Origin: Microbispora hainanensis
GTDB taxonomy: Bacteria; Actinomycetota; Actinomycetes; Streptosporangiales; Streptosporangiaceae
Assembly (NCBI RefSeq): GCF_036186745.1
Contig: NZ_CP108086.1
Location: 5,580,001-5,644,000 of the forward strand
Direction: 5' to 3'
DNA length: 64,000 nucleotides
Below the pieces are notes generated by a model. That model had not been told where the DNA came from. It worked only from the letters and a program-made list of their open reading frames with translations, and ran no database searches. Numbering within the stretch: position 1 is the stretch's first letter; every line of letters starts with the position of its first letter. The translations under genes were made by a program, and so were the position numbers. Shown here piece by piece: positions 3 through 41,378 of this stretch.

Positions 3-3000
3 TACTCGCAGGCGCCGGAGCTGACCGTGACCTACTCGCTGCCGTCGTCGTCTCCCACGCTCGGCAACCTGTCGATCACCCCCGTTACCGGGGGTGCGGT
101 GTCGTCGTTGACGCCGACCCTGCACGCCACCGTCTCCGACACTGCCAGCGGGAGCCTGCGGGCCGACTACGAGGTCGAGCACGACCCCGCCTACACCGCA
201 GAAGGCACTGGTCAGATCTGGGCGGGCAGCTCCGCTGGCGTCACCTCCGGCAACGATGCCCCCGCGGTGGTCCCGGCCGGGAAACTGAGCGACGGCTGGC
301 ACATCCGCTGGCGGGCCCGCGCCACCAACACCGGCACCTCTACCTCCTCGGCCTGGTCGGCCTGGTCGGCTGCCACCATCAGGGCGGCGCAGGACCCGGT
401 GGTCGACAACGTCGCCTCCGGCACCCAGGCCACCCTCACCGTCCCCGCAGGAAAACTCGGCGACGGGTGGAAGGTCCGCTGGCGCGCCCGCGCGGTCGCC
501 GCCGGATCCAACACCTCCGCCTGGTCCGGCTGGCAGGCCCTGACAGTGAAGGTCCCAGCCGCCACCGTCTCCCAGCTGCAGATCACTCCCGCCCAGACGT
601 CCGGGCAGACCACCACTGTCACCTCGCTCACCCCGCAGCTGCTGGCCACCGTCACCGACACCTACGGGCAGCCGCTGCGGGCAGAGTTCGAACTCGAACA
701 CGACCCTGCCGACACCGCCCATGGCGCCGGCCAGATCTGGACCGCCGCGGTCGACAACGTCGCCTCCGGCATCCAGGCGTCGGTTAGCGTCCCTGGTGGG
801 AAACTGAACAACGCGTGGGGAATCCGCTGGCGTGTCCGCGCGCTCAACACCGCCACCCAGGTGACGTCCGCCTGGTCGGACTGGCAGTCGGCCACCGTCG
901 ACATTGGCAATGTCCCGTCTGAGCCGGCGGTGAGCGCGCTACAGGTCGCTCCCTTCCAGGTCGTCGACGGCACCACAGTGACCTCGTCGCTGACTCCGCA
1001 ACTGCTCGCTCAGGTCACCAATCCCGTCGGCGGCACGATGCGGGCGGAGTTTGAGCTCGAACACGACCCCGCCGACACCGAGCACGGCACCGGCCAGATC
1101 TGGACCACCGCGGTCGACGACGTCCCCGCCGGTACCCAGGCGACGGTCACCGTCCCCGCAGACACGCTGAGTGAGGGCTGGCTAGTGCGCTGGCGCGCCC
1201 GCGCCGTCGCCGGCGAGACCACCTCATCCTGGTCGGACTGGCAGACCGTCCGCGTTGACCAGCCCGACCCCGTGCTGGGCACCCTGCAGGTCACCCCGTC
1301 CGAGGCCGTGGACGGCAAGACAGTCAGCTCGTCGCTGACCCCGCAACTGCTCGCCCAGGTCACCGACCCCGCAGGCGGGAAGGTGCGGGCCGAGTTCGAG
1401 CTGGAGCACGACCCCGCCGCCCCCGAAGGCCAGGGCAACGGCCAGATCTGGACCACCGCGGTCGACGACGTGACCTCCGGCACGCAGGCGACCGTAACCG
1501 TCCCCGACGGCAAGCTGTCCGACGGGTGGCTGGTGCGCTGGCGCGCCCGCGCCGTCACCGCTGGCGGTACCTCCGCCTGGTCGGACTGGCAGCAGCTGAC
1601 CGTGACCGACGGCTCGCTCATCCCGGTCGTAGGCAACCCCCGCACCCGCCCTGCCAACAACGGCACGACGATCACGTTGACTCCCGCCCTGCTGGCCACC
1701 GTCAGCTCGGCGCAGGGCGGGCAGCTCGGCGCCGAATTCGAAGTCGAGCACGACCCCGCCGACACGCAGCATGGCACCGGCCAGATCTGGACCACTTCTG
1801 TCAACGGGGTGACCTCCGGCAACGACGCCACGGTCACCATCCCTGCCGGCACTCTCAGCAACGGGTGGAAGGTTCGCTGGCGCGCCCGCGCTGTCAAGAA
1901 CGGCATCGACTCGGACTGGACCGCCTGGCAATCGGTCACCGTCAGCGTGCCGAACCACTACGACACGACCTTCGAGTACGACCGCGACGGACAGACGGTC
2001 AAGCTGATCGACGCCAACGGCAATGTCAGCACTTTCACTTATGACCTACTCGGCCGCCGCACCGCATCCCACGACCCCGACGCGGGCGACTCCCAGCAGG
2101 CCTACGACGATGCTGACCACCTGCTGTGGTCGACCAACGGCAAGGGCCAGAAGGTCTCCTACTCCTACGATGACATCGGCAGGAAGACCGCCGTGTGGTC
2201 CGGGGAGCCCAACAGCGGCACCAAGCTGGCCGAGTGGGTCTACGACACGGTCACCACTAATGGGAAGGGGGAACTCACTTCCGCGACCCGGTACCTCGGC
2301 GGCAACGCCTACGTGGACACCATCACCGGCTACGACGAGATGGGCCGGCCCACCGGCTCCACGCTGACCATCCCCTCGTCCGAAGGGCTAATGGCCGGCA
2401 CCTACACCTTCGCCACCACCTACACCACCACCGGGCAGGTAGCCACCTACACCATGCCCGCCGCCGGCGGCCTCCCCACCGAGACCCTCACCTCCACCTA
2501 CACCGACCTGGACCTCCCCTCCCGGATGACCAGTGGTCTGGGCGGAGGGTTCACCTACATCGACTCCACCACCTACTCCGGCACCGGACGCCTGACCGAC
2601 CGCGCCTATGGAGCAGGCGGGAAGATCAGGCGGCACCTGGACTGGGACCCGAACACCGGGCGAATCAAAAGCGTCACCACCACGACCAAGGCCGACACCA
2701 GCGGCCCCGTAACGGCGCAGGACGACCGCTACACCTACGACCTCTCCGACGAGATCACCAAGATCCTCGACGCCGCCGCAGCCAGCGGCGGCAGCACCGG
2801 CCAGTACGAATGCTTCACCTACGACGGCCTGCACCGCCTGTCCCAGGCCTGGACCACGACCGCGACCGACTGCGGCCAGGGCACGGCCTCGGCCGACAAC
2901 CAGGGCATCGACCCCTACGCCCAGTCCTACACCTACGACGGCGCCGGCAATATCACCAGCCTGACCTCCAACGGTCAGGCCGCCATCTACGACTATCCCC

Positions 3001-4880
3001 AACCGGGAACCGATGCGGTCCGTCCCAACGCGGTCACCGCCATCAGTCGTCCCACCGGCACCGACACCTACGCCTACGACAACGCGGGTCAGCTCACCTC
3101 CCGCACCGTCGGCGGCAAGGCCGGCACCTTCACCTGGAACGAACTCGGCCAGCTGGACAAGGCCACTATCGACGGCCAGGACACCACCATGGTGTACGAC
3201 GCCGACGGCGAACGCCTCATCCGCCGGGCCCCCGGTGGCAAGGCCACCCTGTACCTCGGCTCCATGGAAATCGAGGTCAACGGCGACAGCATCACCGGCA
3301 AGCGCTACTACACGGCCTCCGACGGCGCCACCATCGCCATGCGCACCGGCGGTGACGGCGTCACCTGGCTGATGTCCGGCCTGCACGGCTCCACCCAGCT
3401 CGCCGTCGACGACACCACCGGCAAAGTCTCCCGCGAACGCTACCTGCCCTATGGTCAGCGCCGCGGTGCCGACGACCTCCCCTTCACTGACCGAGGCTTC
3501 CTCGGCAAAACAGAAGACGACTCCACCGGCCTGGACTACCTGTCCGCCCGCTACTACGACCCTGCCATCGCCAAGTTCCTAAACACCGACCCCCTCCTCG
3601 ACCTCCGCAAACCCCAATGGGCAAACCCCTACGGCTATGCCGGAAACAACCCTATTGGCACGTCCGATCCAACCGGACTTTCCCCGGAGCCTGAAAATTG
3701 CAAGGCCAACCCAAGTCAGCTCTGCCTCGAATGGATGACCACCCACAAGTTGGTTAATGGCCACTGGGTGGAAACCGGCTTTGGCTCTATCGATCTGAAA
3801 TTGCCGGCAGGTGTAGATAAAGATAAATTTACAAAAGAGTGGGTAAAGAGGTATCACGATCAGGTCCTTGGTTCTCCAGGCATTCACTACCCCGGCATTC
3901 AGCAATCAGAAGAGTATGCACTCGCCCTAAGCATTTGCTGGGATATAGGATGTCCGAAATCGTTCATCGGTTACCTCCTGAATGGCTTTCATGCTAATAA
4001 CAGCGCCATAGGAATGTATGACGGCGATGACCGTACTATCGGCAGCAACTACCGTTATGGACGTAACTCGGGTCGTTTCGGCAAGGGCAAGCTAGGCTGC
4101 AATAGCTTCGTCCCCGGCACCGAAATCCTCATGGCCGACGGCAGTCACAAGCCCATCGAAGAGGTAGGAATCGGTGACGAAGTCCTGGCCGCCGACCCAG
4201 TTATCGGGGAAGTGCTGGCTGAGCCGGTCCTCAATGTCATCGAGGGTAGGGGCGACAAGGATCTCATTAAAATTACCGTCGATATCGACGGTCCGAGCGG
4301 CGATAAGACGGGTGTCATTCTCGCCACCGACCAGCACCCGTTCTGGTCCGAGGACCAAGGGCACTGGGTCAACGCTAAGCACCTCGACCCTGGAACATGG
4401 CTTCGTACAGCTGCCGGCACTCACGTCCAGATCACTGCAGTCAAGAGCTGGACTGCCCACGATCAGGAGGTGCACAACCTCACGATCGCGGCTGTTCATA
4501 CGTACTTCGTAGTAGTCGACAACACGCCGATCTTGGTGCACAATGCACCTTGCCGGCCGGGAACAAAGTTCAATGTACCAGCCCAGCCTGGTGTCTATGT
4601 CATTCACTTCAAGGACGGCAGCAAATATGTAGGAAGCGCTACCAAGAGCATGCGAGATAGGACCAACAAGTCTATGAGTTCAAGGCATGCAGTCAGGAAA
4701 GCGGGCTATACAATGGACGATATAGTCAACGTAACCTACTTCAACGTGCCTCCCGGAACGAGTAAGACTGCCCTTCGCCGCATGGAGCAGACTGTGATGG
4801 AAGGCATGAAGCTGCAAGGATTTCGCCTTGTAAATCTTAGAGACCCCGAAATAGCCGTCCCTATGGGCGGTTACTACTAA
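3..4880 (+). CDS. RHS/YD-repeat polymorphic toxin with HINT and GIY-YIG nuclease tip (5' partial)
   Basis: The reading frame is open to the left edge, so the true start lies outside; the GTG at 27 is only the first in-window start codon. The N-terminal 640 residues are tandem units sharing EHDPA, GQIW and GWxVRWRARA motifs. YD repeats follow (for example YDRDGQTVKLIDANGN). The RHS core signature YLSARYYDPAIAKFLNTDP is near residue 1170. A HINT autoprocessing domain starts at about Cys1358 and ends in ILVHNA. The last 110 residues carry GVYVIHFKDGSKYVG, later Arg residues and a Glu in RRMEQ, matching the GIY-YIG nuclease pattern. By family knowledge, RHS proteins encapsulate and deliver C-terminal toxins, and HINT cleavage may release the tip. 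The last 1.2 kb is visibly less GC-rich, typical of exchangeable toxin modules. Export and target cell are inferred. Confidence 0.9.
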   Translation, partial: YSQAPELTVTYSLPSSSPTLGNLSITPVTGGAVSSLTPTLHATVSDTASGSLRADYEVEHDPAYTAEGTGQIWAGSSAGVTSGNDAPAVVPAGKLSDGWHIRWRARATNTGTSTSSAWSAWSAATIRAAQDPVVDNVASGTQATLTVPAGKLGDGWKVRWRARAVAAGSNTSAWSGWQALTVKVPAATVSQLQITPAQTSGQTTTVTSLTPQLLATVTDTYGQPLRAEFELEHDPADTAHGAGQIWTAAVDNVASGIQASVSVPGGKLNNAWGIRWRVRALNTATQVTSAWSDWQSATVDIGNVPSEPAVSALQVAPFQVVDGTTVTSSLTPQLLAQVTNPVGGTMRAEFELEHDPADTEHGTGQIWTTAVDDVPAGTQATVTVPADTLSEGWLVRWRARAVAGETTSSWSDWQTVRVDQPDPVLGTLQVTPSEAVDGKTVSSSLTPQLLAQVTDPAGGKVRAEFELEHDPAAPEGQGNGQIWTTAVDDVTSGTQATVTVPDGKLSDGWLVRWRARAVTAGGTSAWSDWQQLTVTDGSLIPVVGNPRTRPANNGTTITLTPALLATVSSAQGGQLGAEFEVEHDPADTQHGTGQIWTTSVNGVTSGNDATVTIPAGTLSNGWKVRWRARAVKNGIDSDWTAWQSVTVSVPNHYDTTFEYDRDGQTVKLIDANGNVSTFTYDLLGRRTASHDPDAGDSQQAYDDADHLLWSTNGKGQKVSYSYDDIGRKTAVWSGEPNSGTKLAEWVYDTVTTNGKGELTSATRYLGGNAYVDTITGYDEMGRPTGSTLTIPSSEGLMAGTYTFATTYTTTGQVATYTMPAAGGLPTETLTSTYTDLDLPSRMTSGLGGGFTYIDSTTYSGTGRLTDRAYGAGGKIRRHLDWDPNTGRIKSVTTTTKADTSGPVTAQDDRYTYDLSDEITKILDAAAASGGSTGQYECFTYDGLHRLSQAWTTTATDCGQGTASADNQGIDPYAQSYTYDGAGNITSLTSNGQAAIYDYPQPGTDAVRPNAVTAISRPTGTDTYAYDNAGQLTSRTVGGKAGTFTWNELGQLDKATIDGQDTTMVYDADGERLIRRAPGGKATLYLGSMEIEVNGDSITGKRYYTASDGATIAMRTGGDGVTWLMSGLHGSTQLAVDDTTGKVSRERYLPYGQRRGADDLPFTDRGFLGKTEDDSTGLDYLSARYYDPAIAKFLNTDPLLDLRKPQWANPYGYAGNNPIGTSDPTGLSPEPENCKANPSQLCLEWMTTHKLVNGHWVETGFGSIDLKLPAGVDKDKFTKEWVKRYHDQVLGSPGIHYPGIQQSEEYALALSICWDIGCPKSFIGYLLNGFHANNSAIGMYDGDDRTIGSNYRYGRNSGRFGKGKLGCNSFVPGTEILMADGSHKPIEEVGIGDEVLAADPVIGEVLAEPVLNVIEGRGDKDLIKITVDIDGPSGDKTGVILATDQHPFWSEDQGHWVNAKHLDPGTWLRTAAGTHVQITAVKSWTAHDQEVHNLTIAAVHTYFVVVDNTPILVHNAPCRPGTKFNVPAQPGVYVIHFKDGSKYVGSATKSMRDRTNKSMSSRHAVRKAGYTMDDIVNVTYFNVPPGTSKTALRRMEQTVMEGMKLQGFRLVNLRDPEIAVPMGGYY
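27..1960 (+). repeat. Tandem ~350-bp repeats coding extracellular stalk units
   Basis: Five units contain a CAGATCTGG-bearing GQIW segment near 211, 730, 1093, 1441 and 1780, each followed about 100 bp later by a VRWRARA segment. One shorter unit (about 393-560) lacks the first half. Units are similar but not identical at DNA level. They probably form a beta-rich stalk before the RHS shell. Confidence 0.8.
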
Positions 4881-4904
4881 TGACTTGGATGCCGAGGTGA
4901 ATGA

Positions 4905-5333
4905 ATGGGGACCTGGGGTTCGGGGCCGTTCGACAGCGACACTGCCGAGGACTTCCTAGAGGAACTAGAGGATCAGTCCGCGATGGAGCGGCTGACCACT
5001 CTGCAACGCATCTTCGGTACTGCCGTGGAGGCACCCGGTAGTTCGACCATCGAGGTGCTACCTGAGGAGGTGACAGCCGCTGCCGCCGTCGTCGCAGCCA
5101 ATATGCCAACAGGGAGGAATCTATCTTGGAATGAGAATGAGGATTATGCCATCACGGAATGGCTGGACAAGCCAATCCCGCCTGATCTTGCCATCGCAGC
5201 TGCGCAAGCAATGGAAGTAACGTTTCCCCCAGATGGTTGGTACTGGCGAAGCTGGAAGAAAGACGAGGATAGAACGGCGGCACAGACTATTATGGAAACA
5301 CTGCTATCCGTGCTGCGTGCCCATACTGGGTAG
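4905..5333 (+). CDS. DUF4259-family protein, probable immunity protein to the upstream toxin
   Basis: A 142-residue acidic protein starting MGTWGSGPFDSDTAEDFLEE, the characteristic DUF4259 opening (MGTWGxGxFDxDxAxDF). The ATG at 4905 has GAGGTGA just upstream and lies 24 bp after the toxin stop, so the two genes are almost certainly co-transcribed. DUF4259 proteins are small cytosolic proteins without an assigned enzymatic role. Placement directly after the toxin tip is the standard position of a cognate immunity gene in RHS loci, and the acidic composition would suit binding a basic nuclease. Immunity function is inferred from position only. Confidence 0.75.
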   Translation: MGTWGSGPFDSDTAEDFLEELEDQSAMERLTTLQRIFGTAVEAPGSSTIEVLPEEVTAAAAVVAANMPTGRNLSWNENEDYAITEWLDKPIPPDLAIAAAQAMEVTFPPDGWYWRSWKKDEDRTAAQTIMETLLSVLRAHTG

Positions 5334-5968: not shown

Positions 5969-7042
5969 TCACAGGCCCACGCGCAGCATCGGGTTGTTCT
6001 TCCACTTGTCGCGATGGCGGATGTACTGCATCACCACCGGGGACTTCTCCGACCACCGGCCGTGCTGGCAGATTCCCGACATCGTTGCGCCGGCGTCGGC
6101 CGCGTCCGTGGCCCCGCCGGCGCGCAGGCCATGCGCGGAGTAGCGGTCGGCGTGCGGTAGCTCGGCAGCTCGGGCGGCTTCCTTCACTACCAGGTTGATC
6201 GCCTCAGGGGTCATGCGGATACCGTCGCCGCGGCCGGCCCGCCGTACGGGCATGCCGTCGTCGCCGATCGCGCCCGCGATCCGGCCGTTCTTGTCGATCG
6301 CGCGGAACACCGGTCCGCTGGTGATGCCGTGTTCTGCGAGGACTTCCAGCCATGCCGACTCGACCCGCACCGGGCAGGTCCCCGGATGAGAGCCGTACGG
6401 CAGCGGCACGCTGACGCCGCGAGCGTCGCGGTCGGTCTTCGACATCGCGATGAAGATCTCCAGCCCTTCCCGCAGGAAGGTCAGGTCCCCGATGTTCAGA
6501 TTGTGCAGCTCGATCCGGCGGGTCATCGCCGCGTACCCGACGGTCAGGATGGCCCGGTTGCGCTGTCCTGCGGGCGTGTCTTCCGGCTGGGCCTCGATCA
6601 TCGCCCGCAGGATCTCGATGGTGATGGGCAGCGAGCGCCGCGGACGGAAGCCGGCCTTGGCCCGCAGCTTGCGGTAGGCGCGCAGGGCCTCCCGGATCGG
6701 CCGGGTGTTCGGCCGCTCGGCGCCCGTGTCGGTGTGAATGGACAAGATCGCCGAGACTGCCCGGTCGACCGTGGCCGGGGCCCGGCCCAGGGTGGTCAGG
6801 TAGGCGATGTAATTGAGGACCGTCGCCGTGGTGGCCGGCAGCGGGGATGCGCCGTTGGCGGCGCACCAGTCGGAGAACCTCGCCCAGTCCCCGGTGTAGG
6901 CCCGATGGGTGTTGTCCGAGCGGGCCTGCTGGAGCAGTTCGGCGGCCTCGTCGCTCAGGACCTCCTCCACGGCGGCGAGGTCCAGGGGTCGCGGGACGAT
7001 ACGTCCCTCGATAGCCGGTTCTCGCTCCACTTCGCCATGCAT
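5969..7042 (-). CDS. Tyrosine recombinase / integrase
   Basis: A 357-residue site-specific recombinase. The N-terminal SAM-like core-binding domain (NTHRAYTGDWARFSDWC) is followed by the catalytic domain. The active-site set is visible: Arg in MTRRIELHNL, Lys in SKTDRDARG, HGLRAGG (H-x-x-R), the Trp in HGRWS and the nucleophile Tyr in VMQYIRH. It catalyses integration, excision or inversion between short inverted-repeat core sites. No transfer genes or excisionase are adjacent. A dif-like inverted repeat lies 33 bp upstream of the start codon and may be its site. Whether this enzyme made the tRNA-Pro scar at 14.9 kb is unknown. Confidence 0.88.
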   Translation of the reverse strand: MHGEVEREPAIEGRIVPRPLDLAAVEEVLSDEAAELLQQARSDNTHRAYTGDWARFSDWCAANGASPLPATTATVLNYIAYLTTLGRAPATVDRAVSAILSIHTDTGAERPNTRPIREALRAYRKLRAKAGFRPRRSLPITIEILRAMIEAQPEDTPAGQRNRAILTVGYAAMTRRIELHNLNIGDLTFLREGLEIFIAMSKTDRDARGVSVPLPYGSHPGTCPVRVESAWLEVLAEHGITSGPVFRAIDKNGRIAGAIGDDGMPVRRAGRGDGIRMTPEAINLVVKEAARAAELPHADRYSAHGLRAGGATDAADAGATMSGICQHGRWSEKSPVVMQYIRHRDKWKNNPMLRVGL

Positions 7043-7101: not shown

Positions 7102-7312
7102 AACATCCATCGAATCAAGGGGTAGGGGACTATCGGCGTCTCGAGCTGTGCCGGAGGTCGAACAGCACCGGCAATTCGAAGGGGGACGACATGTCCGGGT
7201 TGCTGGCAGGAACTGAGCGACGAGGAACGCTGGCACTTCGCGGGATCATCCTCACGGCCGCTCCGGTAACCCTTGCAAACCTTGAACCGCGCCGAGTTTC
7301 GTGGAGGCCGGG

Positions 7313-8253
7313 TTAGCTGGCTGGGGTGAGGATAGCCGTGGCGGTTTGTGTTCGGTAGTGGGTCTCGAATTCGGCTGGTGGGAGGTCGTTGCAGGCGCTG
7401 TGGAGGCGCCGGTTGTTGTACCAGTCGACCCATTCCATGGTGGCGATCTCGACGTCGTCCAGGCCGTTCCACGGGCCGCGCCGGTGGATCAGCTCGGTTT
7501 TGTACAGCCCGATGGTGCTTTCGGCCAGGGCGTTGTCATAGCTGTCCCCACGGGAGCCGACCGAGCAGACCGCCCCGGCACCCGACAGGCGCTCGGTGTA
7601 GCGAATCGACAGATACTGGCAGCCGCGGTCGGAGTGGTGCACCAGCCCTTCCAGCCGCCGTCCGTCTCCGCGACGCCAGATGGCCATCTCCAGCGCGTCC
7701 AGCGCCAGGTCGGTGCGCAGATGATCGGCCAGACGCCAGCCGACGATCATCCGCGAGAACGCGTCGATCACCAGCGCCGCGTACACGAACCCCGACGCGG
7801 TGGGGATGTAGGTCAGGTCGGCGACCCACAGCCGGTTCGGGGCGGGGGCGGTGAAGTCGCGTTTGACCAGGTCTTCGGTCCGCTCGGTGAGGGCTTCGGA
7901 GATCGTTGTCGTGGGCCGCTTGTGATCCCCGCGCACCGCCCCGGCAAGCCCCAGGCGCTTCATCAGCCGGGCCACGGTGCACCGCGCCACGCGGGTGCCG
8001 CGCCGGTTGAGCTCTTTCCACATCTTGCGCACGCCATACACCTCGAAGTTCTCGTTCCACACCGTGGTGATCTCGGCCATGAGCTGGGCGTCCCGCACCG
8101 CCCTCGCGGAGGGCGGGCGGGACTTGGCCGCGTAGTACGTCGACGTCGCCACCTGCAACACTTGGCAGATCGGCTCGACGCCGAAAGCGCCGCGGTGAGC
8201 GTCGATGAAGGCAACTACCTGGGCGGCCGTGGGTCGAGTTCGGCCGCGAAAAA
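7313..8253 (-). CDS. IS3-family OrfB, DDE integrase domain
   Basis: Carries the rve integrase core with DLTYIPT, HHSDRGCQY and ESTIGLYKTELI supplying the D, D and E residues, and ends SACNDLPPAEFETHYRTQT as in many actinobacterial IS3 elements. It lacks its own obvious start; in this family it is made as an OrfAB fusion by programmed frameshifting. The slippery run holds only five T residues (8249-8253, minus strand), which puts OrfB in the +1 rather than the usual -1 frame. This copy may therefore make little transposase. Confidence 0.82.
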
Positions 8254-8534
8254 GCGGCCGCGGCCTTGAGGATCTCGTTGGCGCGGCGCAGCTCGCGCAC
8301 CTCACGCTCCAGCTCGGCGATCCGCTGCGCATCAGCGGTCGAGGTGCCGGGACGCTGTCCCTCGTCGATCTCGGCCTGGCGCACCCACCCGCGCAGCGCC
8401 TCGCGGTGAACACCGAGCTGATCGGCCACCCGGGCGATCGCGCCGGGGGCACCGCCGGTCTGCCGGCGAACCTCAAACACCATCCGGACCGCGCGCTCTC
8501 GAAGCTCTTGGGGATACTTCCTCGGGGCTGGCAT
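8244..8534 (-). CDS. IS3-family OrfA, helix-turn-helix subunit
   Basis: Starts MPAPRKYPQELRERAVRMVF at ATG 8534 and contains the HTH (IARVADQLGVHREALRGWV) plus a leucine-zipper-like segment (RIAELEREVRELRRANEILK). This is the usual DNA-binding, multimerising half of IS3 transposases. The frame normally stops soon after the AAAFF region, but here the phase differs and the frame runs on to about 7536 without homology. The end given is the slippage region, not a stop codon. Confidence 0.8.
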
Positions 8535-8592
8535 CGTGACGTGATTCTCCCTTCCGCCAGCAGATGATGCTGGCTTCAGGGCCTCCACGAAA

Positions 8593-8848
8593 GTCGGAGT
8601 GGTTCAGATGGCTTCGAACACGTGCGGGTGGTGGGGTGGCTGGTGTGGGAGCCATCCCGCCCGCCATCGACCCCAGGCAAGCCCAGCAGCCCGCCTCCTC
8701 CGGCGCAAGCCCGGCTGTGACTGTTGGCATCCAATGACCGTGGAAGATGCCCAGGCGGAGGGACACGTCAAGCCGGGCTTGCACCTCCGTCGCCAGCCCG
8801 CTGCCGCTCCGCGGTGGGGTCGACGGCAGACGGGATGGGCGAAGCGCC
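8593..8848. other. Spacer between two insertion sequences
   Basis: No coding sequence recognised. The stretch contains inverted copies of a CAAGCCCGGCT-like sequence around 8706 and 8769 but nothing assignable. It is likely scrambled remnant DNA. Confidence 0.4.
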
Positions 8849-8856
8849 GGCCCCTG

Positions 8857-10288
8857 GAGCAATCGTCAAGACCTGTGGATCACGAGTTCCTAAGCAGCTG
8901 CTGGTGAGGGCTGATCGTCGGGGCGTTCGACGAGCTTGCCGTTGACGAAGGTGGCCCCGGCGCGGACCAGGGCGACGAGGTGGGGTGCGTTGACCGCGCG
9001 CCAGCGGGCCTGGGCCGACTCGATCAGCTTGAACGCCATGGCCAGCCCTGCCGCCCGTGAACCGGGGCCTTTGGTGACCTTGGTGCGGTGCCGGACTGTG
9101 GCGAACGTCGACTCGATGGGGTTGGTCGTGCGCAGATGCACCCAATGCTCGGCTGGGAAGTCGTAGAAGGCCAGCAGTTCGTCCACGTCGTCGACGACCT
9201 TGGCCACGGCCTTGCCGTACTTGGCCCCGTAAGCGGCCTGGAACGCCTTCACCGCCGCCAGGGCGTGGTCTTTGTCCTCGGCGTTCCAGATCTCCGCCAA
9301 CGCCTTCTTCGCGCCGCTCTGTGCGGACTTCGGCATGGCTCCCAGCACGTTGGCGATTTTGTGAAACCAGCACCTTTGAGCCCTGGCCTGCGGGAACACC
9401 TCACCGAGGGCGGCCCAGAACCCCAGTGCGCCGTCCCCGACGGCCAGCACCGGCGCGCGCATCCCCCGCCGTTTGCAATCGCGCAGCAGGTCGGCCCACG
9501 ACTCGGTCGACTCGCGGTAGCCGTCGGACAGCGCGATGAGCTCCTTACGGCCGTCGGCGCGCACGCCGATCATCACCAGCAGGCACAAACGGTGCTCCTC
9601 CAGGCGGACGTTGACGTGCACCCCGTCGGCCCACAGGTAGACGTAGTCCACGCCCGACAGGTCACGGTCGGCGAAGGCGCGCTGCTCGGCCTTCCACTGC
9701 TCGGTCAGCTTCGTGATGACCGGCGCCGACAGGCCGGCCGCCGAGCCGAGGAACTGCCCCAGCGCCGGGACGAAGTCACCGGAGGACAGGCCGTGCAGGT
9801 AGAGCAAGGGCAGCACTTCGGTGATCTTCGGTGTCTTGCGCGCCCAGGGCGGCAGGATCGCCGAGGAGAAGCGCTTGCGCTCGCCGGTGACCTCATCGAC
9901 GCGCCTGTCGTTGACCCTGGGCGCTTTGACCTCGATCGCGCCGGCCGCGGTGAGCACCTCGCGCGCGGCGTGGTAGCCGTTGCGCACGACCAGACGGCGT
10001 CCATCGTCGTCACGCTGATCGGAGAACTGGGCGATATAGGCGTCGACTTCGGCTTTGAGCGCTTCGGCGAGCATCCTGCGGGCGCCTTCCCGGACGATCT
10101 CGTCGATCAGGGAGGAGGAGACCGGGCCGTCTGTCATGCGGCGGTCGCCGTCAGCGGGGTCAGGGACTACGGTGAGCACGGGTGTGCCTTCCCGACCGAC
10201 GTTGGCGCGTCGGTCATGCATGAGACCTACATGATCATCGGGAAGGTACACCCCTTCCCTGAAGATCCACAGGTTCTAAGCATTGCTC
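8857..10288 (-). mobile_element. IS256-family insertion sequence, copy 1
   Basis: A 1,432-bp element whose ends read GAGCAATCGTCAAGACCTGT and, from the other side, GAGCAATGCTTAGAACCTGT, continuing into GGATC on both sides. It is flanked by an 8-bp direct repeat GGCCCCTG at 8849-8856 and 10289-10296, a fresh target-site duplication. It appears identical to the copy at 39947-41378, in the same orientation. Confidence 0.95.
8890..10179 (-). CDS. IS256-family (Mutator-type) transposase, copy 1
   Basis: About 429 residues from the GTG at 10179 (GGAAGG ribosome site; family members start MLTVVP). Typical segments include LIDEIVREGARRMLAEALKAEVDAYI, FSSAILPPWARKTPKITEVLPLLYLHGLSSGDF, YLWADGVHVNVRLEE (first catalytic D), AVGDGALGFW (second D) and TTNPIESTFATVRHRTKVTKG (catalytic E). 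It performs copy-out or cut-and-paste transposition. The sequence looks intact, so the element is probably active. Confidence 0.95.
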   Translation of the reverse strand: MLTVVPDPADGDRRMTDGPVSSSLIDEIVREGARRMLAEALKAEVDAYIAQFSDQRDDDGRRLVVRNGYHAAREVLTAAGAIEVKAPRVNDRRVDEVTGERKRFSSAILPPWARKTPKITEVLPLLYLHGLSSGDFVPALGQFLGSAAGLSAPVITKLTEQWKAEQRAFADRDLSGVDYVYLWADGVHVNVRLEEHRLCLLVMIGVRADGRKELIALSDGYRESTESWADLLRDCKRRGMRAPVLAVGDGALGFWAALGEVFPQARAQRCWFHKIANVLGAMPKSAQSGAKKALAEIWNAEDKDHALAAVKAFQAAYGAKYGKAVAKVVDDVDELLAFYDFPAEHWVHLRTTNPIESTFATVRHRTKVTKGPGSRAAGLAMAFKLIESAQARWRAVNAPHLVALVRAGATFVNGKLVERPDDQPSPAAA

Positions 10289-10345: not shown

Positions 10346-11149
10346 GTGGCGATCTACACTCGAACCGTGGCCCCTGATGAGACCCGAGGCTCAGCCAAAG
10401 ATCTTGCTCGCGACGAACTGATCTTGGCGCAGTCTGCTTTCTATTTGGATGAACAGGGCGATGTCGAAGCTGCGGCCCTTCTTCTAGATGTCGCGGATAT
10501 CGATTTTATCGCGTGGGAACGCGACTACGACATAACAAATTATCGGGCCTGCCTGAACGCCCCCGGGTGGCTGGCTAAACGTTTTACTCCAGAGATCATA
10601 GAGCGGGTCGAATCGGTCCTGAGGAAAATCGCAGCTCGCCATGACGTGCACATATATGACGTAGTCATTGGAGCCGCACTGCCATTCGTTGATCACACAT
10701 GGCGGGAATCTCTGTATGCGCGACTGTCTGGCGGTACCGTAACGAACCATGCTGTTCGGGTTGAGCCAGACCCGCGACTGCGGCGTGATGGGTTCAACTT
10801 TGACTCTCTCGAAGAGATCAAAGTTTACGACGCACTCAAGCGAGCCCAGGCCGACCTTGTAAAACATGATCCAGCCAATACAATTACGATCTTCCCTCTC
10901 CCTCTGGGACGTGTGGGCATTGGTTCGTCTTGGACTCCCGACTTTCTGGTGGTCAGACAAGGAAAGATCGGTCTTATCGAAGTGGATGGGCCTCACCACC
11001 GCGGACGAGCTGGCGCCGACACCACCAGAGATCGACACTGGAAAAACAGCGGAGTAATCCACATCGAAAGAATTTTAGTGGAAGAAACTAGCCTAGATAG
11101 GGATCTGGATCATCTTGTTCGCGCTTTCCTCCAGCGCATCCTTAGATGA
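10346..11149 (+). CDS. PD-(D/E)XK nuclease-like protein with C-terminal DUF559/Vsr-like fold
   Basis: 267 residues from the GTG at 10346 (AGGGGA upstream). The C-terminal third reads SSWTPDFLVV, then GLIEVDGPHH, TTRDRHWKNSGVIHIERI. This is the D...ExD/H pattern and closing strand of DUF559/very-short-patch-repair-type endonucleases. The N-terminal 180 residues are unassigned and may sense a target or partner. Codons are more AT-rich than in the flanking elements. It sits immediately beside IS256 copy 1 and starts a run of nuclease-like genes, suggesting a defence or DNA-processing role. Exact function is not recognised. Confidence 0.65.
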   Translation: MAIYTRTVAPDETRGSAKDLARDELILAQSAFYLDEQGDVEAAALLLDVADIDFIAWERDYDITNYRACLNAPGWLAKRFTPEIIERVESVLRKIAARHDVHIYDVVIGAALPFVDHTWRESLYARLSGGTVTNHAVRVEPDPRLRRDGFNFDSLEEIKVYDALKRAQADLVKHDPANTITIFPLPLGRVGIGSSWTPDFLVVRQGKIGLIEVDGPHHRGRAGADTTRDRHWKNSGVIHIERILVEETSLDRDLDHLVRAFLQRILR

Positions 11150-11290
11150 TGCAAGGGCCTCGCCGCTGATTTTGGGCCTATCTGGAAAATATTCAGAAAG
11201 GTCAATGAAGATCAGAGCCTTAGCCTCATCGCGCTGGGTGATGGCTAGAGGCTGAAATCGTCCGACAGGCTCAATGAGTTCAACCTGTTA
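11140..11290 (-). pseudogene. Short unassigned coding remnant, minus strand
   Basis: The minus strand reads about 60 codons without a stop (ELIEPVGRFQPLAITQRDEA, later IFIDLSEYFPDRPKISGEAL) but has a stop just upstream and no start codon. Its protein-like composition suggests the tail of a lost gene convergent to the nuclease gene. No family is recognised. Confidence 0.3.
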
Positions 11291-11331
11291 GGCCGACTCG
11301 AATTTCTACCGCGCTACCAGATGGAGGATGA

Positions 11332-12267
11332 ATGACCGGAACGTCAGGCTTCAAGAAGATCAGCCCACTTGCCTATGATGCGTTAGCAGATTCACTCTCT
11401 CTAATTTTCTGGTACAAGAAGTCGCTAGCGCGCTTCCTGCGTGCCGCGCTGCGAGAATACCCGGAACTCTTAGTTGGCTTGGATCTGGAAAACGCACCTA
11501 AGCGAGATACTGTCGATGCACTAGTCTCTCGACTGATGCACGGAGAACGCAAGTATCAGTCAGTATCTATTAGTCTGATGCTTGAGATCTCCTCGATGGA
11601 GCGCTTTAGAGAGTTAGAGCAACTTGAAGACCCTAGCTGGCTAGAGCGTGCGCAGCAGGCTGTTGCGGATCTTAGCGATCTGACAACTCAGCACCGCGAG
11701 ATAGCAGAAGAGCATGCGCGATTTGCGAAAGAATTGGCAAATGCCGTCGAAGAAGCGGAGAAGGGGCGCGCAACTTCCAAGGCTCTGGACGAGTTGAAGC
11801 AGCAATTCCTTGTGCTGCATTCACTTTCGGACCCCCAAGCGCGAGGACGTAAATTCGAAGGATTTCTCAACGATCTTTTCTGGCTTTTTGATTTCAATCC
11901 GAGGGCGGCCTACTCGTTAGAACTAGAGCAAATCGACGGGGCATTCAGCTTTGACACCGACGATTATGTGCTGGAAGCCAAGTGGCTGAAAGGTGTTGTA
12001 TCTCGTGAGCAGTTAGATGTGTTCGGGATGAAGATCGCACGCAAGGGAAAGAATGCTCTAGGTCTTTACGTGAGCATCAATGGATTCAGCTCTGACGCAT
12101 TGAAGCAGTACGAGTCGGCATCATCCTTCATCACAATGGACGGCTCCGACATCTTCATGATCCTTGATGGTCGCGTTCGACTGGACGATCTACTTCTTCG
12201 CAAGAAACGATATGTCAACGAGACCGGTGATTGTTATTTTCCGGCTACCCGCATGTTGGGTGAATAG
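11332..12267 (+). CDS. Restriction-endonuclease-like protein with central coiled coil
   Basis: 311 residues; ATG preceded by GGAGGATGA. The N-terminal half is helical and the middle (TTQHREIAEEHARFAKELANA) looks coiled-coil. A C-terminal PD-(D/E)XK-like core follows: RGRKFEGFLNDLFWLFDF, QIDGAFSFDTDDYVLEAKW (D...ExK) and SREQLDVFGMKIARKGKNALG. Such cores occur in stand-alone restriction-like genes of defence islands. The protein probably cuts or binds DNA as a dimer. No methyltransferase is encoded nearby, so it is not a classical restriction-modification system. The gene is AT-richer than the chromosome average here, suggesting transfer. Confidence 0.7.
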   Translation: MTGTSGFKKISPLAYDALADSLSLIFWYKKSLARFLRAALREYPELLVGLDLENAPKRDTVDALVSRLMHGERKYQSVSISLMLEISSMERFRELEQLEDPSWLERAQQAVADLSDLTTQHREIAEEHARFAKELANAVEEAEKGRATSKALDELKQQFLVLHSLSDPQARGRKFEGFLNDLFWLFDFNPRAAYSLELEQIDGAFSFDTDDYVLEAKWLKGVVSREQLDVFGMKIARKGKNALGLYVSINGFSSDALKQYESASSFITMDGSDIFMILDGRVRLDDLLLRKKRYVNETGDCYFPATRMLGE

Positions 12268-12504
12268 GTCTGGCGCAGTCACGCCAGCGAGAGGAAACGA
12301 AATGCCTCGAGCTGCACGCCGCGTCGTTTTACCCCTAGGGCCTCGCAAGGCCGCTCGACCAGCACAGCAGACCATCCAACCCACGTCGTCAGGATGGAGC
12401 GTGTGTACCTGGGGGCCGGCAAGCGAGCCATAATCTTGAGCTAATCGTGATCGCGTTCGTCGGTCATCCGATCCTTCACATTCACCACCTCGCGGAGAGA
12501 GTGC
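12268..12504. other. Intergenic, degenerate repeat shared with 13.98 kb
   Basis: Non-coding. The segment about 12350-12400 (CGACCAGCACAGCA ... GTCGTCAGGATGG) resembles about 13985-14035 (CGACCAGCGCAGCA ... GTCGGCAGGATGG), implying an old duplication around the nuclease genes. Confidence 0.4.
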
Positions 12505-13026
12505 ATGAGCTCCTTCTTATCTCAATTGCCAGCATTACTTGGCGTAGTGATCGGCGCACTTGGATCTTACATGGCGACCAGCCTAAACGAGCGCTCGCGG
12601 TGGAGGCGTCAGTACGCAACACGGTGGGATGCGGAGCGTCATAGGACGTATGTTGAATACGCTCACGCTGTCCGGGCTGTCATCCTATTGTGTGGGCGAT
12701 TAGCTGCGGCGCGAGGGATAACTGACCATTATAGTAAGACTGCATTGAGCGACATCGAAAACGGTCTGCAAGAGCTGAACCGTGCTTCTTTGGAGCGTGC
12801 ATGGAGGTTCGAGTCTGTCCTACTGCTGGGAGATCAGGACACAATCAATGCAGCAGATAGATGGAGTGCAGTTGCGGAACAACTGCAAGACTTTGCACGA
12901 GGAGAGAAAACGAATCCGGAAGAATGGGAAAGGATCTATAGGGAAGCGTATGCGGCAAAGGATGAATTCCTGTCGAAAGCCAGAAAGCACCTAGGTGTCG
13001 ATGTCGCCCCTCTCGTCCAACGATGA
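12505..13026 (+). CDS. Membrane-anchored hypothetical protein
   Basis: 173 residues. A single N-terminal hydrophobic segment (LPALLGVVIGALGSYMATSL) is followed by a basic NERSRWRRQYATRWDAERHR stretch and a helical cytoplasmic domain. Similar small proteins with one anchor and an ER/R-rich helix are widespread in actinobacteria with no assigned function. It precedes the Mrr-like gene by 19 bp and is probably co-transcribed with it. In this context it might be a membrane partner of the nuclease, but that is speculative. Confidence 0.6.
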   Translation: MSSFLSQLPALLGVVIGALGSYMATSLNERSRWRRQYATRWDAERHRTYVEYAHAVRAVILLCGRLAAARGITDHYSKTALSDIENGLQELNRASLERAWRFESVLLLGDQDTINAADRWSAVAEQLQDFARGEKTNPEEWERIYREAYAAKDEFLSKARKHLGVDVAPLVQR

Positions 13027-13045
13027 TGTGCAGGAGCAAATATCA

Positions 13046-13828
13046 ATGAAAAAACCGGAGTGGAAGAATTATGAAATTGCCGTCGGAAGCCTGATGGAGG
13101 AGCTTGGGTTCGATGTGCAGATCAATGAAAGAATAGAGGGTGTTCGAGGGGTTCATGACATTGATGTGACTGCTCGAATGAACATTGGCGGAATAACCCA
13201 GCTATGGGTAATCGAATGCAAGAAATGGAATAGGCCCGTTCCGAAAGAGCGAGTACTAACTTTACTCGGGATCGTTAGCGACGTCGGCGCCGACAGGGGG
13301 CTGATGTTCTCAGATCGTGGCTTTCAGTCGGGTGCGATCCGCGCCGCCTCGAACGCGAATGTAACTCTTACGAGCCTCGAAGACTTTCGCCAGGACGCGG
13401 CGCAAGAAATACATAGACTGCGACTGAGGCGAATGAACGAAGAGATAAACAAGCTCCTGCAAAGTTTTTACGCCTTGGGACAGCTGACCGAGCCGGATCG
13501 TAGCCGAGTTCTGGCGCGCTACATTGGACCGACCGACATACTTGGCGAGAAAAGCCCTCTCGCGCTAACTGGCCAGCTTACTTTTATTCGCAGCACAGTG
13601 GATCAGGCCGAACAGAATGAATGGCCAGTGCCTTTCATTCCTATGGACAGTAGCGTCCCTTTCTATGTTGCTGACTGGCCTACATTCTATGTGCTGATCG
13701 AGGGAAAGATTGAAACTTGCAAGAGGATATATGAACACATGACAGGGTTCGGTGGTGAGGTTTTGGACTGGACGGAACTACAGCCATCCGAAATGACCGA
13801 GCTAATCAATCGGATTCGAGCCAATTGA
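13046..13828 (+). CDS. Mrr-type restriction endonuclease-like protein
   Basis: 260 residues from the ATG at 13046 (CAGGAG upstream). The N-terminal domain has AVGSLMEELGFDVQ, GVHDIDVTARM and LWVIECKKWNRPVPKERV, the full D...ExK restriction_endonuc_4/Mrr core. LGIVSDVGADRGLMFSDRGF matches the following helix and strand. The C-terminal 130 residues are unassigned. Mrr-type proteins cleave foreign or modified DNA. The frame opened upstream at 12995 overlaps the preceding gene, but the later start has the better ribosome site. It is the third PD-(D/E)XK gene in 3.5 kb. Confidence 0.8.
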   Translation: MKKPEWKNYEIAVGSLMEELGFDVQINERIEGVRGVHDIDVTARMNIGGITQLWVIECKKWNRPVPKERVLTLLGIVSDVGADRGLMFSDRGFQSGAIRAASNANVTLTSLEDFRQDAAQEIHRLRLRRMNEEINKLLQSFYALGQLTEPDRSRVLARYIGPTDILGEKSPLALTGQLTFIRSTVDQAEQNEWPVPFIPMDSSVPFYVADWPTFYVLIEGKIETCKRIYEHMTGFGGEVLDWTELQPSEMTELINRIRAN

Positions 13829-39946: not shown

Positions 39947-41378
39947 GAGCAATCGTCAAGACCTGTGGATCACGAGTTCCTAAGCAGCTGCTGGTGAGGG
40001 CTGATCGTCGGGGCGTTCGACGAGCTTGCCGTTGACGAAGGTGGCCCCGGCGCGGACCAGGGCGACGAGGTGGGGTGCGTTGACCGCGCGCCAGCGGGCC
40101 TGGGCCGACTCGATCAGCTTGAACGCCATGGCCAGCCCTGCCGCCCGTGAACCGGGGCCTTTGGTGACCTTGGTGCGGTGCCGGACTGTGGCGAACGTCG
40201 ACTCGATGGGGTTGGTCGTGCGCAGATGCACCCAATGCTCGGCTGGGAAGTCGTAGAAGGCCAGCAGTTCGTCCACGTCGTCGACGACCTTGGCCACGGC
40301 CTTGCCGTACTTGGCCCCGTAAGCGGCCTGGAACGCCTTCACCGCCGCCAGGGCGTGGTCTTTGTCCTCGGCGTTCCAGATCTCCGCCAACGCCTTCTTC
40401 GCGCCGCTCTGTGCGGACTTCGGCATGGCTCCCAGCACGTTGGCGATTTTGTGAAACCAGCACCTTTGAGCCCTGGCCTGCGGGAACACCTCACCGAGGG
40501 CGGCCCAGAACCCCAGTGCGCCGTCCCCGACGGCCAGCACCGGCGCGCGCATCCCCCGCCGTTTGCAATCGCGCAGCAGGTCGGCCCACGACTCGGTCGA
40601 CTCGCGGTAGCCGTCGGACAGCGCGATGAGCTCCTTACGGCCGTCGGCGCGCACGCCGATCATCACCAGCAGGCACAAACGGTGCTCCTCCAGGCGGACG
40701 TTGACGTGCACCCCGTCGGCCCACAGGTAGACGTAGTCCACGCCCGACAGGTCACGGTCGGCGAAGGCGCGCTGCTCGGCCTTCCACTGCTCGGTCAGCT
40801 TCGTGATGACCGGCGCCGACAGGCCGGCCGCCGAGCCGAGGAACTGCCCCAGCGCCGGGACGAAGTCACCGGAGGACAGGCCGTGCAGGTAGAGCAAGGG
40901 CAGCACTTCGGTGATCTTCGGTGTCTTGCGCGCCCAGGGCGGCAGGATCGCCGAGGAGAAGCGCTTGCGCTCGCCGGTGACCTCATCGACGCGCCTGTCG
41001 TTGACCCTGGGCGCTTTGACCTCGATCGCGCCGGCCGCGGTGAGCACCTCGCGCGCGGCGTGGTAGCCGTTGCGCACGACCAGACGGCGTCCATCGTCGT
41101 CACGCTGATCGGAGAACTGGGCGATATAGGCGTCGACTTCGGCTTTGAGCGCTTCGGCGAGCATCCTGCGGGCGCCTTCCCGGACGATCTCGTCGATCAG
41201 GGAGGAGGAGACCGGGCCGTCTGTCATGCGGCGGTCGCCGTCAGCGGGGTCAGGGACTACGGTGAGCACGGGTGTGCCTTCCCGACCGACGTTGGCGCGT
41301 CGGTCATGCATGAGACCTACATGATCATCGGGAAGGTACACCCCTTCCCTGAAGATCCACAGGTTCTAAGCATTGCTC
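39947..41378 (-). mobile_element. IS256-family insertion sequence, copy 2
   Basis: A 1,432-bp element apparently identical to 8857-10288 and in the same orientation. It is flanked by a 9-bp direct repeat TCGCACTCG at 39938-39946 and 41379-41387. Different flanking duplications at the two copies show independent insertion. Confidence 0.96.
39980..41269 (-). CDS. IS256-family transposase, copy 2
   Basis: About 429 residues from GTG 41269; the predicted protein is the same as that of copy 1, with catalytic D, D and E in VDYVYLWADGVHVN, AVGDGALGFW and TTNPIESTFATVR. No internal stops or frameshifts are seen. Identity of the two copies points to recent transposition. Confidence 0.95.
   Translation of the reverse strand: MLTVVPDPADGDRRMTDGPVSSSLIDEIVREGARRMLAEALKAEVDAYIAQFSDQRDDDGRRLVVRNGYHAAREVLTAAGAIEVKAPRVNDRRVDEVTGERKRFSSAILPPWARKTPKITEVLPLLYLHGLSSGDFVPALGQFLGSAAGLSAPVITKLTEQWKAEQRAFADRDLSGVDYVYLWADGVHVNVRLEEHRLCLLVMIGVRADGRKELIALSDGYRESTESWADLLRDCKRRGMRAPVLAVGDGALGFWAALGEVFPQARAQRCWFHKIANVLGAMPKSAQSGAKKALAEIWNAEDKDHALAAVKAFQAAYGAKYGKAVAKVVDDVDELLAFYDFPAEHWVHLRTTNPIESTFATVRHRTKVTKGPGSRAAGLAMAFKLIESAQARWRAVNAPHLVALVRAGATFVNGKLVERPDDQPSPAAA

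Follow-up and report, generated by a model that had tools for sequence, protein, structure and literature searches.

The nucleases considered here have their closest described counterparts in the Mrr-type type IV restriction enzymes (EcoKMrr), the modification-dependent MspJI/AspBHI family, the nuclease domains of FokI, Nt.BspD6I and Can2/Cdn1, and the DUF559/Vsr-like endonucleases. An excerpt of one paper counts both Mrr and MspJI among the modification-dependent enzymes with an Mrr-cat domain (PMC3874153), and, as excerpted, another describes an Escherichia coli selection that yielded 11 defence systems with DNase-like parts, often PD(D/E)XK, with a predicted methylase in just one (PMC9519451). 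Here, we analysed a cluster of four plus-strand open reading frames (ORFs) in Microbispora hainanensis, which occupies positions 10346-13828 of a 64,000-nucleotide stretch (hereafter, the window; 5,580,001-5,644,000 of the 8.8-Mb genome, contig NZ_CP108086.1). Three of the genes encode PD-(D/E)XK nuclease-like proteins, and the cluster is probably a set of independent single-gene restriction-type nucleases gathered as cargo.

10346-11149, plus strand: gene 1 (P0001), 267 amino acids (aa), an alpha/beta N-terminal part and a DUF559/Vsr-like PD-(D/E)XK domain (D199, E212-V-D214, H217, H218)
11332-12267, plus strand: gene 2 (P0002), 311 aa, a helical N-domain, a long helix at 101-162 (probable coiled coil) and a C-terminal Mrr_cat nuclease (D202, E215, K217)
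12505-13026, plus strand: gene 3 (P0003), 173 aa, soluble apart from a single N-terminal membrane helix
13046-13828, plus strand: gene 4 (P0004), an Mrr-like nuclease of 260 aa from the likely ATG, or 277 aa from a GTG at 12995

Each nuclease resembles a described group in part. P0002 and P0004 share with EcoKMrr the Mrr_cat domain and the stand-alone gene with no adjoining methyltransferase; however, P0002 has an all-helical N-domain and a 62-residue helix, and the nuclease domain of P0004 lies at the N-terminus. The N-terminal Mrr-N winged-helix domain has no Pfam match at E up to 1 in either protein. Although MspJI is the top Foldseek match of the P0002 nuclease half, no SRA domain, the 5-methylcytosine-binding type of the MspJI/AspBHI family, is matched by Pfam at E up to 1 in P0002, and the N-domain of P0002 is predicted to be all-helical. 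The catalytic-domain fold of P0002 is also that of FokI/Nt.BspD6I and Can2/Cdn1 (Z 7.5-10.6), whereas those proteins have other recognition or effector domains, and a CARF domain is unmatched in P0002. P0001 has the motif PD...EVDGPHH and a weak DUF559 match in common with DUF559/Vsr-like endonucleases, but falls under the Pfam cut-off and carries an N-terminal part of its own of ~140 residues.

Co-occurrence of the four genes

An earlier reading of the window (the original prediction) had seen here three distinct PD-(D/E)XK nuclease-like genes in a row and a membrane-anchored protein, in lower-GC DNA lacking a methyltransferase or helicase, and had suggested a possible uncharacterised defence island. 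The three ORFs do lie in a row with their nuclease motifs intact, and gene 3 has the anticipated hydrophobic N-terminal segment. In sequence the nucleases are distinct, P0002 and P0004 giving no significant alignment with each other, but both of these belong to one Pfam family, Mrr_cat. The GC content of the four genes is 50-54%, against mostly 65-76% in the window; per kb, it is 0.51-0.58 at 10-14 kb versus 0.62-0.76 in most of the window, and at third codon positions 0.51-0.55 versus 0.81-0.92 in the five neighbouring genes measured. A second low-GC stretch (0.56-0.60) lies at 3-6 kb. As anticipated, no methyltransferase or helicase was recognised by eye among the ORFs of 6-20 kb, where seven proteins were profile-scanned; an unlinked methyltransferase was not searched for.

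Relatives of the four genes were drawn from genome contigs, whole genomes, plasmids and viral contigs, with E<=1e-3 as the threshold for co-occurrence. At none of 88 loci (49 of them at least 8 kb long; some overlap the same place) does a second cluster gene lie beside a relative of one, which led us to reject a single four-gene system, and no conserved four-gene operon was found. A multi-protein defence system in which a membrane-anchored sensor would act with three nucleases is thus highly improbable, even though the genes lie on the same strand within 3.5 kb, are alike in third-position GC (0.51-0.55), and the P0004 ATG follows the end of P0003 by just 19 bp. In addition to the zero count, gaps of 182 bp and 237 bp part genes 1/2 and 2/3, the DNA match of gene 2 to another genus ends at the limits of the gene itself, and no relative of a cluster nuclease is near those P0003 relatives whose surroundings were viewed. 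The notion of the four genes as one uncharacterised system is accordingly abandoned: gene 2 is mobile alone, and four of six P0003 relatives are high-GC and nuclease-free.

Gene 2 and its relatives

P0002 matches Mrr_cat (PF04471) at 24.1 bits (E 4e-5), over the gathering score of 21. In an alignment of 11 rows, D202 and E215 are each present in 11/11 and K217 in 8/11, with R at this position in 3/11; the 11 aligned relatives have in common an N-domain, in which W27, K57 and R58 never vary, as well as the long helix and the nuclease pattern EQIDG...EA(K/R)W. In the AlphaFold2 model (predicted local distance difference test, pLDDT, 85; predicted template-modelling score, pTM, 0.56), four helices within residues 12-87 are followed by the one at 101-162 and by a nuclease domain of alpha/beta fold. 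This predicted helix of 62 residues precedes the nuclease domain, and the label given to P0002 at the outset, coiled-coil restriction-endonuclease-like, fits the model.

The fold search covered essentially the nuclease half alone (residues 148-305), for which MspJI was the best Foldseek match (E 6.6e-4, probability 1.00; TM-score 0.23). VIA-align placed the C-terminal domain closest to AF1548 (Z 10.7, root-mean-square deviation 2.5, 105 aligned), followed by Nt.BspD6I/R.BspD6I (10.2-10.6), FokI (8.8), AspBHI (8.1) and MspJI (7.8), and found the nuclease half also like EndoMS and Can2/Cdn1; since rows for the RNA polymerase subunit RPB5 reach Z 8.1 as well, scores below about 8 carry little weight, and the match shows fold, not function. 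Searches of solved-structure sequences with the cluster proteins gave nothing useful, and neither P0001 nor P0002 matches any PADLOC 2.0.0 model at E up to 1. Among the papers listed by literature searches, none describes the P0002 family in its title or displayed abstract, though such a paper may exist elsewhere or use a different vocabulary.

The closest relative of P0002, from Streptosporangium subroseum (L004), is 91% identical at the protein level. At the DNA level, the match (81%) covers window positions 11311-12270, from 21 bp 5' of the start to just past the stop, and the adjoining DNA on both sides gives no match to the Streptosporangium locus better than E 0.8. A rough Nei-Gojobori ratio of nonsynonymous to synonymous divergence (dN/dS) is 0.029, with synonymous sites near saturation (proportion of synonymous differences, pS, 0.655). 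The low ratio and a match that ends at the gene bounds imply that gene 2 is maintained by selection and travels without its neighbours; as judged from this comparison, the gene is under strong purifying selection. It is therefore quite improbable that the cluster is decaying debris without function, flanked by insertion sequences (IS): two IS elements do stand beside P0001 and the non-coding gaps are long, but every ORF is intact with its catalytic residues, and the gene 2 ratio is about 0.03.

Relatives of P0002 occur in 1374 of 72,556 plasmid records, 1130 of them from Klebsiella; 6 records cover at least 80% of the query, and most match the C-terminal half. A profile search with the N-domain among 376 genomes of the phylum gave matches in 4, its own included. 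One genome (G517) holds a full-length relative (45% over residues 1-309), another (G083) a weak one (24%; a 260-aa frame with one stop), and a third (G464) a weak and doubtful N-domain match (E 7.6e-4) within a 924-aa frame. Phage records contain no relative at E 1e-5, and 10 viral contigs do, four of these relatives being near full-length or long. Two of the viral contigs (L078 and L079), which carry diverged P0002 relatives, have several flanking genes alike by eye, including a ~620-aa protein without a Pfam match, and L078 has type I restriction-modification (R-M) genes; the shared site is a possible cargo hotspot.

Among 14 loci whose P0002 relative is long or near full-length, 4 have known defence genes within 6 kb of it, the names resting on hand-picked proteins and not on a full census. 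The neighbours are Shedu (SduA, E 1.3e-82) in L005; type I R-M (2e-289) and Abi_C in L011, from Bacteroidota; a type IV mREase (1066 bits) on one side and HEC-08/DUF3644 (4e-20) on the other in L063; and type I R-M in L078. PDC and HEC models we take to be candidate defence systems; a strong candidate, PDC-S06 (1.7e-193), adjoins the relative in L006. Weaker cases are an AAA ATPase with a PDC-S59 match (2e-8) in L009 and a UvrD/GajB-like helicase 30 bp downstream of the relative in L080, within a phage-like gene row. Six distant plasmid relatives were viewed through their annotation: Qat and AbiEii adjoin one of them, Shedu is ~4 kb away from a second, and a third has an Abi gene nearby.

In a rough comparison based on gene calls from a simple script, 136 neighbour ORFs of the 14 loci match 247 PADLOC models at E<=1e-8, a number inflated by redundant type I models (names are listed for 25 of the 247), versus 5 models (C3a206, MzaA, mad3, mad8 and CARF3) for 136 ORFs of 13 arbitrary stretches, which were not matched genome by genome and include some ORFs cut at stretch ends. 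ORFs <110 aa, >1400 aa or with N-runs, plus two long control ORFs, were left out. Collectively, the homologues of the cluster genes are scattered, but not devoid of defence association.

Genes 1, 3 and 4

P0001 matches DUF559 (PF04480) weakly (17.9 bits, E 0.0028), under the gathering cut-off of 20.6. The core of its motif, PD...E(V/I)DG(P/F)HH, is retained in 7 of 8 relatives inspected. The structural model is of low confidence (pLDDT 66), with an order of helices and strands in residues 155-266 that fits a nuclease fold; a resemblance of the N-terminal part to ribosomal eS7 and SirA (Z about 8) was not trusted. The gene is rare: near full-length matches were found in 2 of 246 genomes of the class, its own included, along with one partial match, and relatives lie in 8 of 72,556 plasmid records, all eight actinomycete and linear. 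One relative (L058) has GajA and GajB nearby (4.6e-188 and 3.4e-123), i.e., Gabija, and another (L057) a HEC-06 gene annotated as DUF262.

The DUF559/Vsr-type motif raises the question of whether P0001 could instead act on mismatches or in repair, as a Vsr-like nuclease linked to cytosine methylation, in line with a Caulobacter DUF559 Vsr-like protein that, in an excerpt of the paper describing it, acts with an unlinked cytosine methyltransferase (PMC12907096). We consider this role unlikely, since the gene is rare, resides on mobile DNA, has an N-terminal domain of its own and is represented in one Gabija and one DUF262 neighbourhood.

P0003 has a single hydrophobic N-terminal segment (mean hydropathy over 19 residues, 1.68) and no family match better than E 0.038, PADLOC 2.0.0 giving just PDC-M01B at 0.047. 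Its relatives are commoner, being present in 18 of 246 class genomes (its own included). Third-position GC is 0.92-0.94 in four of the six relatives viewed in wider context and 0.70 and 0.54 in the others, and none of the six has any of the three nucleases nearby.

P0004 matches Mrr_cat at 47.9 bits (E 1.7e-12), over the gathering score of 21, and has the catalytic D..ECK. The ATG at 13046, which has AGGAG as its ribosome site, is a more probable start of translation than the GTG at 12995. Its one PADLOC 2.0.0 match, PDC-S02 (E 3.5e-5), covers part of the profile and does not amount to a catalogued system; a 30-residue stretch matches a lectin structure entry (E 7.6e-6), and no relatives were found in viral contigs. 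Among 11 loci viewed, a HEC-06 gene lies 173 bp from the P0004 relative in L067, HsdS and a methyltransferase about 4 kb away in L068, and an annotated DNA methyltransferase about 5 kb away in one locus. In L090 the relative is near an annotated abortive-infection gene within an apparent Vibrio integron array, of which we take the DUF3265 spacers to be a sign. On plasmids of Rhizobium and Methylocystis (L088:5206-7702 and L091:4473-8056), genes for a P0004-like nuclease, a PfkB-family kinase and a QueC-like protein are lined up like an operon, and in L088 an annotated anti-phage dGTPase as well as QueC is near; this row is a possible defence or DNA-modification operon. As excerpted, an earlier publication already reports a PfkB partner of one QueC cluster, without a nuclease (PMC13329287). 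No defence gene was recognised by eye or annotation in the remaining loci of the 11.

Mobile surroundings and the meaning of the cluster

The cluster is bordered by mobile DNA on its left and by a tRNA-derived repeat on its right:

5969-7042, minus strand: tyrosine recombinase, by protein family match
7283-8606, minus strand: IS3-family element with 27-nt inverted repeats
8857-10288, minus strand: IS256-family element with transposase at 8890-10251, 25-nt inverted repeats and a perfect 8-bp target duplication (GGCCCCTG), ending 57 bp before P0001
14939-15049, plus strand: right copy of a 111-bp exact direct repeat, which starts within tRNA-Pro(GGG) and takes in the 3' half of that gene together with sequence downstream of it

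The left copy of the repeat, with an intact tRNA-Pro(GGG), lies 147.3 kb upstream at genome positions 5,447,641-5,447,751, placing the nuclease cluster at the right end of a repeat-bounded stretch of ~147 kb. Repeats at both edges are what integration at a tRNA gene leaves, making this a putative integration footprint by its sequence; the similarity extends to about 397 bp at 90%, and the longer imperfect part may reflect more than one integration event. Between the repeats lie two CRISPR-Cas loci, about 34 to 61 kb from the nucleases: type I-E (Cas3, Cse1, Cas7, Cas5 and Cas6; genome 5,546,373-5,556,194, L153:6373-16194, array at 5,554,515-5,556,194) and type I-G (Cas3g, Csb2 and Csb1; genome 5,529,007-5,537,193, L152:9007-17193, array at 5,529,007-5,530,618). 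No cas1 or cas2 was recognised by eye at either locus, and a small ORF between Cas3 and Cse1 has no family match. Pieces of six related genomes revealed no clean empty site; what is mainly shared is a block that looks arsC/pit-like by eye, at about 15.4-17.4 kb in the window. There are minor matches as well, and G433 has a further block of 3 kb; pieces like the 3' half of the tRNA are found close to the arsC/pit-like block in G428 and at a distance of about 14 kb in G211.

The term defence island, used in the original prediction, is thus partly borne out and fits better when applied to the wider region than to the four-gene unit: defence genes lie beside some relatives of each nuclease, and the tRNA-bounded, IS-rich stretch holds two CRISPR-Cas systems.

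Several features of the region merit mention in their own right. The IS256-family element is present in three identical full copies in the genome (8857-10288; window 39960-41360; genome 5,506,073-5,507,473), suggesting recent activity. The transposase region of the IS3-family element contains an ALIL pseudoknot (window 8144-8256, minus strand; E 5.2e-10; 48.2 bits, just under the Rfam threshold of 50), which is in keeping with a programmed frameshift. In the interval separating these IS elements, window 8607-8856 has short pieces like L004:2933-3167 and genome 2,489,443-2,489,619 (78%); until the IS256-family element inserted, window 8614-8838 was on the upstream side of the cluster. Window 27-5333 covers the end of a very large, probable RHS-repeat protein, whose ORF of about 4100 aa lies mostly to the left of the window; its C-terminus looks HINT- and GIY-YIG-like, and the small ORF that follows may encode its immunity protein.

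With an IS element and a recombinase adjoining the cluster, P0001 relatives on linear actinomycete plasmids and P0002 relatives common on plasmids (though just 6 records cover at least 80% of the query), the nucleases might serve the mobile element itself, through integration, replication or the exclusion of rival elements or plasmids, and not phage defence. We hold this to be rather doubtful, because chromosomal or genome-contig copies adjoin R-M, Shedu and type IV systems; besides, action against rival elements would still count as defence.

The interpretation we favour, independent nucleases gathered as cargo, also has observations that weigh against it, in addition to the RPB5 match. No defence neighbour was recognised at 7 of the 14 P0002 loci (L004, L007, L008, L010, L062, L079 and L081), the closest relative (L004) among them, or, by annotation or eye, at 6 of the 8 P0001 loci viewed, and the neighbour in L006 is a candidate system only. 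The catalytic lysine of P0002 is replaced by arginine in three rows, part of the motif is lost in one of eight P0001 relatives (L057), and the P0002 relative of G517 (L141, 45%) lacks both the EQIDG...E-x-(K/R)W pattern and, by eye, a defence neighbour; by its missing motif, it may be inactive. Window 8614-8838 shares three short pieces (38-89 bp) with the DNA that directly follows the gene in L004, and among the contents of the 147-kb stretch are ordinary genes, by eye superoxide dismutase- and ABC-transporter-like.

If the nucleases are indeed independent cargo, the cluster would comprise three stand-alone nucleases and an apparently unconnected membrane protein, acquired piecemeal from lower-GC sources and lodged towards the right end of a variable region that is rich in IS elements and bounded by tRNA-Pro. 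All three nucleases would cut invading DNA. P0002 might dimerise through its long helix, forming a coiled coil, with the helical N-domain sensing a feature of foreign DNA, either base modification or a structure that arises in replication or repair; this recognition would license the Mrr-type domain to cut, much as in type IV restriction. P0004 could play a similar Mrr-like role, and P0001 could nick or cut in a Vsr-like manner.

More tentatively, P0002 may typify an uncatalogued, widespread class of anti-phage nucleases encoded by one gene each. Their dedicated helical N-domain and coiled coil would constitute a new sensor of foreign DNA or infection, and the nucleases would work beside type I R-M, Shedu, Qat and type IV systems, and be exchanged among them, in Actinomycetota, Bacteroidota and Pseudomonadota plasmids. 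If the gene 2 family does act as one-gene defence, it would add to the known set a small, easily tested nuclease whose sensing domain is unassigned, and distant relatives of which sit on many Klebsiella plasmids. In this actinomycete, three unrelated nuclease families are stacked in one region already holding two types of CRISPR-Cas.

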